This document shows positions 34,491 through 38,730 of a stretch of DNA of 64,000 bases, piece after piece. Source of the DNA: an uncultured Alphaproteobacteria bacterium (GTDB taxonomy: Bacteria; Pseudomonadota; Alphaproteobacteria; Rhodobacterales; Rhodobacteraceae). The translations under genes and the position numbers were made by a program. The notes under the pieces were generated by a model. It saw nothing but the letters and a program-made list of their open reading frames with translations, had not been told where the DNA came from and did no database searches. Location of the stretch: contig CAKMYZ010000005.1 of assembly GCA_929200255.1 (NCBI GenBank), forward strand, positions 1 through 64,000. The letters are read 5' to 3'. Numbering within the stretch: position 1 is the stretch's first letter; each line of letters opens with the position of its first letter.

Positions 34491-34600
34491 GGTGAGGGTC
34501 TTTCTTTTACCAGTGCGCGCACTCTAATTGCATAGAAGTTGTGTGATTCTCAAACCCCAGGCAACTAGCATCAGCTTGATAATGATTAAGGGGGAGTGAC

Positions 34601-34796
34601 ATGGCATATCCATTTCAGGATGTGGATGTCGCGTTGCCGGCATTGTGACCGACCCCTTTGCGGTTGCCGAGCTGCGCCAACTTGCGCAAGACGCTGACGT
34701 CAGTCATCTTGAAATGGTCAGCCGAACCGCAACAGCGCCTGAAAAAATGCTGCCCTGAGTTGGGGAAATAACCAAACTGATGGGAGCACGCGGCCA
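34601..34796 (+). pseudogene. Decayed small gene, 5' part, split by IS66
   Basis: An ATG at 34601 follows an excellent ribosome binding site (aagggggagtgac) but stops after 15 codons (MAYPFQDVDVALPAL). A -1 frame then continues GIVTDPFAVAELRQLAQDAD.. to EKMLP, meets a TGA at 34756-34758, and in the same frame goes on VGEITKLMGARGQ into the IS66 target duplication. So the gene carries a frameshift, a nonsense codon and the insertion. The reconstructed protein would be ~110 residues, of no recognised family. GATAATGATT upstream is faintly Fur-box-like. Confidence 0.6.
34789..34796 (+). repeat. IS66 target-site duplication, left copy
   Basis: CGCGGCCA immediately before the left terminal repeat, identical to the 8 bases immediately after the right one (38569-38576). 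Eight base pairs is the duplication length characteristic of IS66-family elements. Confidence 0.9.
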
Positions 34797-34822
34797 GTAA
34801 CCGTCTGGCCTCCCCGCTCTGA
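34797..34822 (+). repeat. IS66 left terminal inverted repeat
   Basis: Begins GTAACCGTCTGGCCTCCCCG. It matches the inverted right end in 20 of 26 positions, including the first eight. Confidence 0.9.
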
Positions 34823-34881
34823 TGTGTCTTGATGTGGTCTGATAATGTCCATTGTTGATAATGGACATCTTGAGGGCGGAT

Positions 34882-35271
34882 ATGGCGGGCAAGAAGGGAC
34901 AGAAGAAGCGGTTCTGGTCGGATGATGAGAAGCGCTTGATTTGCGGGCAGACGACGGTGTCGGATGTATCGGTTGCGCAGGTTGCGCGGCGTTATGCTAT
35001 GAATGCCAACCTGATCCATAATTGGTTGAAGGATCCGAGGTTTGCGCCGGTGCATGACATCAATGCGGTGGTGGATACTGGTACAGGCTTTCTGCCGGTT
35101 GAGATCGCAGACACAGTCGCTGTTTCCTTAGTCGATGAAGCGCCTCAGATGGACGTCGCGGTTTCGGCTGACCGTGTGGACATCACGTTGTCAGACGGCC
35201 GGCGGATTTTGGTGGAAGGCCCCACGGCCCTGTCTGGGGTTCTGGCTCTGGTCGAAGGGCTGATGGTGTGA
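34882..35271 (+). CDS. tnpA: IS66 accessory protein TnpA
   Basis: A 129-residue basic protein starting [20 protein letters not shown]. The N-terminal helix-turn-helix ([20 protein letters not shown]) is a MerR/Tc1-type DNA-binding module found in IS66 TnpA, and the C-terminal part ([18 protein letters not shown]) is typical. TnpA is needed for transposition along with TnpB and TnpC. The ATG at 34882 has GAGGGC upstream; in-frame starts at 34852 and 34861 are possible. Its stop overlaps the tnpB GTG by 4 bp. Confidence 0.88.
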
Positions 35272-35639
35272 TCCCGGTTCCGTCGAACACGCGGGTCTGG
35301 CTGGCGGCGGGTGTCACGGACATGCGCAAGCAGTTCAACGGATTGTCAGCCTTGGCCGAGGGCGTTCTGAAGCAGGATCCGTATTCGGGGCATCTGTTTG
35401 TGTTTCGTGGCCGCCGGGGCGATCTCATCAAGATCGTATGGTGGGATGGTCAGGGGGCTTGCATGTTTTCCAAGCGTCTGGAGAAGGGCAGATACATTTG
35501 GCCCGCAGCTTCAGATGGCAAGGTGACGATCAGTCCAGCGCAATTGTCGATGCTGCTGGAAGGGATTGACTGGCGTGCGCCACAACGGACTTGGCGGCCT
35601 TTGACGGTCGGCAATTTATCAGCAAATCCAGCACCATAG
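35268..35639 (+). CDS. tnpB: IS66 accessory protein TnpB (Orf2)
   Basis: A 123-residue protein of the IS66 Orf2 family, starting at a GTG ([20 protein letters not shown]). The conserved core is [40 protein letters not shown] and [12 protein letters not shown]. Its biochemical role is unknown, but it is essential for transposition in studied IS66 elements. The 4-bp overlap with tnpA (GTGA) implies translational coupling. The C-terminus after [12 protein letters not shown] is a short variable tail. Confidence 0.92.
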
Positions 35640-35676
35640 GATTCACATTGGTGTGCCGATCCGCTATCTATCGGTC

Positions 35677-37179
35677 ATGTATGACGCACCTAAATTCCTG
35701 CCATCTGACCCTACAGAACTGCGTGTTGCGGCAGAAGGTTTGGTCGAACTGGCCAAGGCCCAAGCGTTGCAGATTGAGAAGTTGAAGCACCAGCTTGCAG
35801 GCCATCAAAAGCATCGTTTTGGATCAAAGTCGGAATCGTCTGACCAACTCAACCTGCAGCTTCGGCTGGAAGAGGAAGAAACAGCTGCCGCCCAGATCAA
35901 CCTACCTGAAGAGGTGACTGATCCCGAGCCAAAGCAAAAACCAAAGCGCAAGCCGCTGCCGCCAACCCTGCCTCGCAATGAGCAGATACTGAGCCCAGGT
36001 GAGGCGTGCAAATGTGGCGGCGAACTGCGGGCCATTGGCGAAGATGTGACCGAGGAACTGGAATATGTCCCAGGCCGGTTTGTTGTGAACCGGATCGTCC
36101 GCCCTCGGATGGCTTGCAAATGCTGCGACAAGATCGTGCAAGCCGCGTTGCCATCGCGCCCCATTGAGCGCGGCCGACCTGGTGCCGGTCTGTTGGCCCA
36201 TGTGCTTGTGAACAAATACGCGGACCATTGCCCCTTATATCGCCAAAGCCAGATCTTCGCCCGCGAAGGCATTGACCTGGATCGTTCCACGCTGGCGGGA
36301 TGGGTTGGGCAATCCACGAAGCTTCTGGAACCCCTGGCTGACGCCATCGGGCGTTATGCCCGAGCCGGAGAGGCGATCTTTGCGGACGACACACCGATCA
36401 AGATGCAAGCCAAAAAGAAGTGTGCAACAGCCCGCATCTGGACCTATGTCCGCGATGAACGACCATGGGGCAGCTCCGATCCACCGGCGGCTTTGTACAA
36501 GTTCAGTACCGACCGCGAAGGCAAACATCCCACCGAACATCTGGCCAACTACCAAGGTTGGATACACGCGGATGGATATACAGGGTTCAATGATCTGTTC
36601 AGCAAGGAAGACGTCCATGAGATGGCCTGCATGGCCCATGTCCGCCGCAAGTTCGTCGATATCTTCCAGTCGCAAGGCTCACAGATCGCCGAAGAGGCCA
36701 TCCGCCGGATCGCACTTCTCTATGCCGTCGAAAAGGCCGCGCGAGGCAAGTCACCGGATGAACGGGTGGCATTGCGCCAACGCGATGCCAAACCGGTGTT
36801 TGATGGTCTGGAAGTCTGGTTTGGCGCGCAGCTGAACCGCATCTCTGGCAAATCGGAACTGGCCAAGGTCATCCGCTATGCTCTTGGCCGCATGAAGAAG
36901 ATGCGCGGATATCTCAAAAACGGCTTCCTGGAGCTCGACAATAATTGTGCAGAGAGATCAATCCGTTGTGTGGCCTTGGGCAGGAAGAATTATCTCTTCG
37001 TGGGCTCCGAAGGTGGAGGCAAAGTAGCTGCCATTACCTACACCCTGATCGAAACCGCCAAGCTCAACAAAGTCGATCCACAAGCCTGGCTCACTTGGGT
37101 TCTCGCTCAAATCGCCGACCACAAGATCAAACGCATCGACGAGCTCCTCCCATGGCGTTACGCTGCTACAGTAGCATAA
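35677..37179 (+). CDS. tnpC: IS66 transposase TnpC
   Basis: A ~500-residue DDE transposase. Residues ~25-65 form a leucine-zipper-like coiled coil ([20 protein letters not shown]). A zinc-binding segment follows ([36 protein letters not shown]). The catalytic triad is visible: D in [12 protein letters not shown] in [13 protein letters not shown], and E in [20 protein letters not shown]. The C-terminal IS66 domain ends [11 protein letters not shown]. The frame is intact, so the element may be active. Starts at 35653 (GTG) and 35677 (ATG) are both possible. Confidence 0.93.
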
Positions 37180-37248
37180 CAGCTCAAACCCTGCTTCAAT
37201 GGTTGGGAGCCTTACAGTACAGAAAACAATGGAACGGTGACACATAGC

Positions 37249-38442
37249 ATGAGAACAATTGTTTGTGCCATAATTGGATTGCTGATATTGGCGTCTCAAT
37301 CGCATGCTCAAAGCCTCGGGCAGGACCTTTTGCCACCTGGTGCCGGGTCTGACCCTGTTGGTTCATTGAGCTTCAGCGAGGAGCGGACCCCCAAACCTCA
37401 AGAAGAAGGTCTGGGTTTTTGGTTCGACATTTCACTTGGTCTTGCTCATCAGGGCAATGCTCACGCTCAACTGCACGTTGCGTCGGTATATTATGACCAA
37501 GTTTTTGACTTCGCTGAGGCGGCGAAATGGTTCAGAATGGCAGCAGAACAAGGTCTTCCCTTGGCTCAGTCAAGTTTGGCATCCATGTACTATTCCGGCG
37601 CCGGCGTGCAACATGACTGTCAGGAAGCTCGGAAGTGGTTTGGCCTGGCGGCTCAACAAGGCGACACTCATTCGCAACACAACCTCGCGACGATGTATCT
37701 CCTTGGTGAATGTGCCCCACTAGATCATATAGAAGCCCAAAGGTGGTTCCGTTTGTCCGCTGAAGGCGGTCTCGTGGGGTCGCAAATTGAACTCGCGACG
37801 ATGTATCTAAATGGTGCCAGAATTGCGCAAGATTACCATGAAGCAGAGATCTGGTTTCGTCGGGCAGCAGAACAAGGTGATCCTGAAGCCCAAAGAATGC
37901 TTGGTGAGATGTTTGCCGACGGCCTTGGGGTGGCGCAGGATGACGTGGAGGCGACGAGGTGGTTCAAACTGGCCGCGGATCAAGGTGATCCAAAGGCTCA
38001 GTATTTTCTTGGGTCCCCGCAAAGCAACGACGACGTCAGCGGAGAGCTGTCAATCAACCTCGTCGTTGAAACGGCCTACAACGCAGCAAAAGTTCCGAGT
38101 GTCGGCAATTTGCTTTTGCCAGACAGAGAGACCATCGGACGTTTCTATATTGTCGAACAGCAACCTGTGGTTTCCGCCGATGACATCGTGGACGCTCGGC
38201 CGGACTTTGCCCGCAATGGCCCTCCCGCAGTTTGGATTCTGTTGGATCCACTGGCTACTGAGCGATTTCGGCAAGTGACCTCGGACAATATAGGAAAGTC
38301 TTTGGCGATCGTCTTGAATGGTGAGGTAATTTCAGCTCCAATGATACAGTCGTCCATACCGAATGGAGAAATCTACATCACTGGCAACTTCACCGGAACG
38401 GAAGCAGCCAACTTGGCAAATGTTGTTCGCTTAGGAGAGTAG
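37249..38442 (+). CDS. Passenger gene: exported Sel1-repeat / SecD P1-head-like protein
   Basis: A 397-residue protein. A signal peptide (MRTIVCAIIGLLILASQSHA) leads to about six Sel1-type TPR repeats of ~36 residues (AEAAKWFRMAAEQGLPLAQS, CQEARKWFGLAAQQGDTHSQ, VEATRWFKLAADQGDPKAQY). The last ~125 residues resemble the periplasmic P1-head subdomain of SecD: ARNGPPAVWILLDPLATERF, then VTSDNIGKSLAIVLNGEVIS and IYITGNFTGTEAANLANVVR. It lies between tnpC and the right terminal repeat of the IS66 element. The combination is unusual and the function unknown. Codon composition appears more A/T-rich than the flanking chromosome. An upstream GTG at 37237 is an alternative start. Confidence 0.82.
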   Translation: MRTIVCAIIGLLILASQSHAQSLGQDLLPPGAGSDPVGSLSFSEERTPKPQEEGLGFWFDISLGLAHQGNAHAQLHVASVYYDQVFDFAEAAKWFRMAAEQGLPLAQSSLASMYYSGAGVQHDCQEARKWFGLAAQQGDTHSQHNLATMYLLGECAPLDHIEAQRWFRLSAEGGLVGSQIELATMYLNGARIAQDYHEAEIWFRRAAEQGDPEAQRMLGEMFADGLGVAQDDVEATRWFKLAADQGDPKAQYFLGSPQSNDDVSGELSINLVVETAYNAAKVPSVGNLLLPDRETIGRFYIVEQQPVVSADDIVDARPDFARNGPPAVWILLDPLATERFRQVTSDNIGKSLAIVLNGEVISAPMIQSSIPNGEIYITGNFTGTEAANLANVVRLGE

Positions 38443-38511
38443 TTTATGGAATCCAGAGTATGATTGGCCCCATCGGGGTCGATTTGGGTAAGGGACGAAA
38501 TCCCCCTTTAA

Positions 38512-38537
38512 GTAACCTTCTGGTCTGCCCACTCTGA
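38512..38537 (+). repeat. Extra IS66 left-end-like repeat inside the element
   Basis: Begins GTAACCTTCTGGTCTGCCCA and matches the true left repeat at 22 of 26 positions in the same orientation. It lies only 5 bp from the right terminal repeat, facing it, so 38512-38568 looks like a 57-bp internally deleted IS66 relative fused to the right end. Confidence 0.7.
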
Positions 38538-38542
38538 CGGTG

Positions 38543-38568
38543 TTTGAGCGGCCAGACCACACGGTTAC
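38543..38568 (-). repeat. IS66 right terminal inverted repeat
   Basis: On the minus strand it reads GTAACCGTGTGGTCTGGCCG from 38568, matching the left terminal repeat at 20 of 26 positions. It is followed by the 8-bp duplication CGCGGCCA. Confidence 0.88.
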
Positions 38569-38576
38569 CGCGGCCA
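38569..38576 (+). repeat. IS66 target-site duplication, right copy
   Basis: CGCGGCCA directly after the right terminal repeat, identical to 34789-34796. Confidence 0.9.
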
Positions 38577-38685
38577 GATCGACCAAAGCATTGGGGAGGC
38601 GCTTGTGGCCTGGCGCGACCGACGCGCGGCTGCTGGCACACTTAATGGCTATCAGACGTTTGCCCCGCTGATTGCAAGACGCTGA
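38569..38685 (+). pseudogene. Decayed small gene, 3' part beyond IS66
   Basis: When the element and one duplication are removed, the frame before the insertion (TKLMGARGQ) continues without a shift as IDQSIGEALVAWRDRRAAAG, then TLNGYQTFAPLIARR and a TGA at 38683-38685. This shows the two fragments belong to one former gene. The family is not recognised. Confidence 0.6.
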
Positions 38686-38730
38686 TCCGATTCATTTATC
38701 CAGAAATACCTTTGACCATCCTTGCAAAGC

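Follow-up and report, generated by a model that had tools for sequence, protein, structure and literature searches.

A passenger-carrying IS66 element with a double right end and a Sel1/SecD-head cargo gene in an uncultured member of the Rhodobacteraceae

Insertion sequences (ISs) that carry passenger genes have been named transporter ISs (PMC3129680). In Pseudomonas, 7 of 25 IS66 elements carry passengers according to PMC12888890, and for one of them, ISPa75-fosZ, that account proposes capture because the left and right ends resemble different IS66 elements. We analyzed an IS66 element at positions 34797-38568 of the window, by which we mean the 64,000-nucleotide stretch formed by positions 1 to 64,000 of contig CAKMYZ010000005.1 (assembly GCA_929200255.1), from an uncultured alphaproteobacterium of the family Rhodobacteraceae. 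This element carries a non-transposition gene inside its ends and is a passenger-carrying IS66 (tIS66), a published kind; its cargo is unusual and its capture scar is informative. As described in PMC12888890, ISPa75-fosZ and the other Pseudomonas tIS66 share with it the order tnpABC followed by one passenger inside the ends. In contrast, ISPa75-fosZ carries a fosfomycin-resistance cargo and is reported from 159 strains with ten target duplications, whereas the window element has a Sel1/SecD-head cargo and a single copy. As far as that account describes ISPa75-fosZ, a left end of the second IS66, besides its right end, can be made out only in the window element. The features of the window element are as follows.

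34797-38568: IS66 element, 3772 bp
34789-34796, no strand: left copy of the 8-bp target duplication, CGCGGCCA (sequence and end-pair scan)
34797-34822, + strand: left terminal inverted repeat (IRL; end-pair scan and end alignment)
34852-35271, + strand: tnpA, NCBIfam NF047595 72.1 bits (cut-off 74), longest reading frame, starting at TTG and with ATG codons in frame at 34861 and 34881
35268-35639, + strand: tnpB, Pfam PF05717 (TnpB_IS66), 7.6e-39
35653-37179, + strand: tnpC, IS66 transposase, PF03050 (DDE_Tnp_IS66) 8.8e-93, NCBIfam NF033517 423 bits (cut-off 180)
37180-37248, no strand: region where relatives carry their right end; no recognizable end in the window
37249 (ATG)-38442 (stop), + strand: passenger gene, 397 aa, with signal peptide (by eye), Sel1 repeats, and SecD P1 head
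38512-38542, + strand (direct orientation): extra left-type end (IRL'), part of a 57-bp palindrome
38543-38568, - strand: right terminal inverted repeat (IRR), the end in use (end-pair scan and end alignment)
38569-38576, no strand: right copy of the 8-bp target duplication, CGCGGCCA (sequence and end-pair scan)

The boundaries were located by an end-pair scan, in which left ends between 34000 and 35000 were combined with right ends between 37150 and 40000. GT...AC termini were required, with at most one mismatch between the flanking 8-mers and at least 13 of 24 matching positions in the terminal repeat. The scan returned a single pair, 34797/38568, with no duplication mismatch and a 19/24 repeat. 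The flanking 8-mers at 34789-34796 and 38569-38576 are identical (8/8), and the order from 34789 to 38576 is CGCGGCCA, GTAACCGTCTGG..., ...CACACGGTTAC, CGCGGCCA. The initial annotation, made from the sequence alone, had reported imperfect 26-bp terminal repeats and a perfect 8-bp duplication; both were recovered, with IRL and IRR matching at 20 of 26 positions over the longer span. A duplication of 8 bp is the norm in the IS66 family, and it was found together with GTAA-type ends in the window element and in 18 relatives alike.

An alternative right end with a duplication just past tnpC was absent from the scanned range. When the ungapped matches to each end were ranked, none of the top four fell in the 37180-37248 region, a result with which a strongly decayed end is still compatible. 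Because neither an end pair nor a repeat above chance was found just past tnpC, the outer ends are the real ends. They delimit the inserted unit, and the ends and the duplication support insertion of the 3772 bp as a single unit.

The same rule was used to place the ends of 37 loci with related tnpC genes. Ends were considered clean when an exact 8-bp duplication accompanied a repeat of at least 16/24, and 18 of the 37 loci passed. For the 19 others a clean pair could not be placed, in several cases owing to a nearby end of the locus or contig, and L132 (18/24 ends, one duplication mismatch) was kept out of the 18. Three clean copies sit in one genome (G064) and are therefore not independent. 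A wider tnpC survey across 385 genomes of the class had matches in 7 genomes, with few full copies that were new. The initial annotation had noted that IS66 elements normally end soon after tnpC; in 16 of the 18 clean relatives, the end lies 14-49 bp beyond the position that aligns with the last tnpC codon. The other two extend further (L131, 549 bp; L150, 608 bp), and the window element extends 1392 bp. The same annotation had called passenger-carrying IS66 elements known but uncommon: known they are, and uncommon among these relatives (2/18), but for Pseudomonas the proportion cited above is 7 of 25. Could the window instead hold a standard IS66 beside an unrelated gene, with the duplication at 38569 due to chance? 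There is a plausible gap past tnpC, where most relatives end, but the scan gave no other right end accompanied by a duplication, and the exact 8/8 flanks coincide with the 19/24 repeat. The initial annotation had itself raised this case, and the check for such an end pair was negative; this explanation is already contradicted, and we give it virtually no weight.

Next to its right end, the element contains a third end-like sequence that the initial annotation had missed. When the element was scanned with its own two ends, with 100 dinucleotide shuffles as the control, IRL' at 38512 matched IRL at 20 of 24 positions and IRR at 19 of 24, against shuffle maxima of 17 and 18. No internal end match above 16/24 was seen in five control elements (L131, L150, L130, L121, and L122). 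IRL' starts 69 bp past the cargo stop codon and runs straight into IRR, with nothing between the two ends, so that 38512-38568 forms a 57-bp palindrome in which 21 of 28 positions pair. Compared with sixteen left ends, IRL' was most similar to that of a Leisingera IS66 (27/31), followed by G036 (25/31) and then its own IRL (23/31, tied with two others); its match to the IRR of the window was 20/26.

The folding of the 57 bp as single-stranded DNA surpasses that of 197 out of 200 shuffles, whereas the wider stretch of 81 bases folds unexceptionally (z -1.33). The palindromic form, its position 69 bp past the cargo stop, and the unexceptional wider fold would suit a right end that has simply become elaborate, or a hairpin such as a terminator, with an incidental likeness to a left end. 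However, the 20/24 match to the left end exceeds all 100 shuffles, and the likeness extends beyond the 24-bp core (27/31). In addition, the palindrome lacks a T run, no terminator was called in 34700-38700, and the right ends of relatives lack this palindrome. We therefore regard an elaborated end or hairpin as very improbable.

The palindrome might also be a pre-existing miniature derivative of IS66, resembling a miniature inverted-repeat transposable element and used in trans, rather than a remnant of a second copy. With its two ends and no other sequence, and with the pairing and folding described above, the 57-bp block fits such a derivative. However, free copies were sought in 56 genomes of the genus, and the only strong match was the place in the window itself (best other E 0.019). 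The same search gave nothing strong elsewhere in the genus for the 129 bp that precede the right end (best E 0.019). A strict end-pair pattern of 49-79 bp, which the 57 bp of the window would also miss, was run on genome_contigs. It gave three stretches, all of them palindromes from planctomycetes, 57 or 70 bp long (L158, 1406-1462; L159, 7641-7697; L160, 920-989), with arms that match the IS66 end consensus exactly. No IS66 tnpC match was present in the surrounding 8 kb, and these palindromes look like longer hairpins. A miniature derivative thus seems unlikely, though less so than a mere hairpin.

The transposition genes identify the element as IS66, with both TnpB (PF05717) and a DDE TnpC of IS66 type (PF03050, NF033517). 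TnpA scored 72.1 bits against the IS66 TnpA family NF047595, just below its cut-off of 74, and had no Pfam match at 0.001. The D, D, and E residues of TnpC were picked by eye, following the general motif. tnpA, tnpB, tnpC, and the 397-codon gene all lie on the same strand, and their order agrees with the initial annotation, which had placed these genes, the last of them unrelated, inside the ends. A promoter and terminator scan gave nothing above shuffles. An imperfect inverted repeat spans the tnpC stop codon (37154-37181) and was seen by eye at the same place in L012, L023, L027, and L030.

The cargo protein begins with a signal peptide, judged by eye, followed by Sel1 repeats (about residues 50-255), which form a solenoid as in other Sel1-repeat proteins, and a SecD P1 head (about residues 264-397). 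The domains are those of the exported Sel1/SecD-head-like protein named in the initial annotation. The protein is not a SecD, which has a P1 base, a membrane domain, and a P1 head; here, the head alone is present, and the NCBIfam secD model gave 85 bits (cut-off 244). Compared with the P1 domain of SecD/SecDF (TtSecDF, 3aqo and 5yhf), the cargo differs in lacking the SecD membrane segments and P1 base and in having Sel1 repeats. The P1 head of SecD is reported to bind translocating substrate (PMC7793623). For such a head, exported on a Sel1 scaffold and free of the membrane, the simplest role would therefore be to help or to act as a decoy on the outer side of the Sec channel. Judged from its domains, the cargo would most probably work in soluble form, as helper or decoy, on the periplasmic side of the Sec machinery.

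The combination of Sel1 repeats and a SecD P1 head in one protein was not found elsewhere in 56 genus, 295 family, and 385 class genomes. In the class sample, 19 genomes matched at E <= 1e-38, and only the match of the window itself reached the P1 head. A peptide-pattern scan for the cargo gave 14 stretches in genome_contigs, none related by tblastn, and one unrelated stretch in viral_contigs. Among plasmids, no DNA match was obtained, and none of 858 records found by protein covered 80%. In a DNA search of 146 genomes, matches to the cargo region were confined to G129 (176 bases) and G083 (31 bases); the G129 match is a Sel1 protein with a different C-terminus (by eye). No description of an IS66 with a Sel1/SecD-head cargo was found among the papers that the literature searches listed, which is weak evidence of absence. 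Rare, apparently exported proteins that have a SecD P1 head but lack the rest of SecD were observed at L186 2833-3864, L183 2662-3465, L184 2039-2845, and L185 1438-1962; three of these four adjoin secD.

The element is present once in its own genome. Other IS66 DNA there comprises stretches on contigs C32 (with GrpB) and C49 and, on C26 (17228-17310; L007/L013), a lone 83-bp left-end fragment, 89% identical, which begins at base 6, stops near the start of tnpA, and has lost the outermost bases. No further copy of the cargo-bearing element was found in the 56 genus or 295 family genomes. Several independent insertions with identical cargo, which the initial annotation had suggested looking for, were thus not obtained; this is a lack of support rather than a disproof. 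The closest relative found, in G036, is 92% identical over the first 1449 bp but breaks off inside tnpC, and is therefore uninformative about the presence of the cargo there. A search of the 56 genus genomes with the joined 309-base flanks matched only the own genome and 27 bases in G028 (E 4.8e-4); hence, the search did not turn up an empty allele. The element sits in a reading frame that is decayed, carrying a shift and a stop (34600-34788 and 38577-38688), and that is in frame across the duplication. This target lies between a DEAD-box/DUF1992-like region and ribosomal protein genes (names by eye). No family was assigned to this frame; a weak match to RexA (0.097) was below the cut-off and was taken as chance.

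Two of the surveyed relatives also carry passengers. L131 (C32:56-2987; 2932 bp) lies in the genome of the window, a second passenger-bearing IS66 that had escaped the initial annotation, so that one genome holds two such elements with different cargo. Like the window element, this tIS66 is bordered by a perfect 8-bp duplication (GCGGCAAC) and has one gene past tnpC, but this gene (2414-2959) encodes GrpB (PF04229, 2.1e-40), and the extra internal end is lacking. On plasmids, 231 records matched the GrpB element, none covering 80%, and the ten listed match the tnpC part only. L150 (5147-8114), on a plasmid of Paracoccus sp. Arc7-R13, carries a pRiA4b ORF-3 passenger (1.3e-51). This gene also lies beside an IS66 transposase on Roseomonas mucosa plasmids and occurs at two places on the Paracoccus plasmid, a recurrent IS66 cargo directly after tnpC. 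These elements, too, are tIS66 with one gene directly after tnpC; in contrast to that of the window, their cargo is shared across genera, and L150 lacks the extra internal end. PADLOC assigned no families to the three passengers (window cargo, GrpB, and pRiA4b ORF-3).

Taken as a whole, the explanation that we consider probable is that a tIS66 transposed via its outermost ends, that its passenger had been captured between two IS66 elements, and that this cargo is exported and interacts with Sec. The starting point would have been a complete IS66 to the left of the gene and a second IS66 to its right, in the same orientation. The left copy would have lost its own right end, and its left end would have been used together with the right end of the second copy, capturing the passenger. 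Judging from the 57-bp scar, the second copy would later have been reduced to its extremities, 31 bp on the left and 26 bp on the right. As the anatomy of the element shows, TnpA, TnpB, and TnpC acted on the outermost ends at 34797 and 38568, inserting the 3772 bp as a single unit and producing the 8-bp duplication. Once exported, the cargo may use its Sel1 solenoid for protein contacts and its P1 head to bind unfolded or translocating polypeptide. The ends and the single duplication support the earlier proposal that the element is mobile as a unit.

Several points weigh against this explanation. With only one copy, the movement of the cargo-bearing form depends on a single duplication. Neither an earlier stage, with two full copies around the gene, nor an empty site was found in the 146-genome DNA search or the 56 genus genomes. 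L131 and L150 lack the extra end, so this way of capture is not a general one. No IS66-linked example came from the strict pattern of 49-79 bp in genome_contigs, where the 57 bp of the window would have gone unseen as well, and IRR is about equally similar to the left and right ends of relatives (20/26 to both). The putative function of the cargo is read from its domains.

A bolder reading, possible but doubtful in our view, is that the element is a composite of two IS66 copies, the right one collapsed to a 57-bp working end made of ends only, and that the soluble Sel1-SecD-head cargo tunes host protein export. The element does not have the two IS copies around a cargo that define a composite transposon; the right copy consists of 57 bp of ends only. 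If the collapsed composite is real, a rarely seen step by which insertion sequences become transposons would be preserved here, and if the cargo tunes export, protein export would be altered in any host that the element enters.

For the probable capture of the passenger between two IS66 elements, the scar makes the route testable: the left end of a full copy paired with the right end of a collapsed copy, carrying the intervening DNA. Exported and equipped with a SecD P1 head, the cargo protein would be a new class of IS66 passenger, and its capture bears on how plain insertion sequences are converted into gene carriers.
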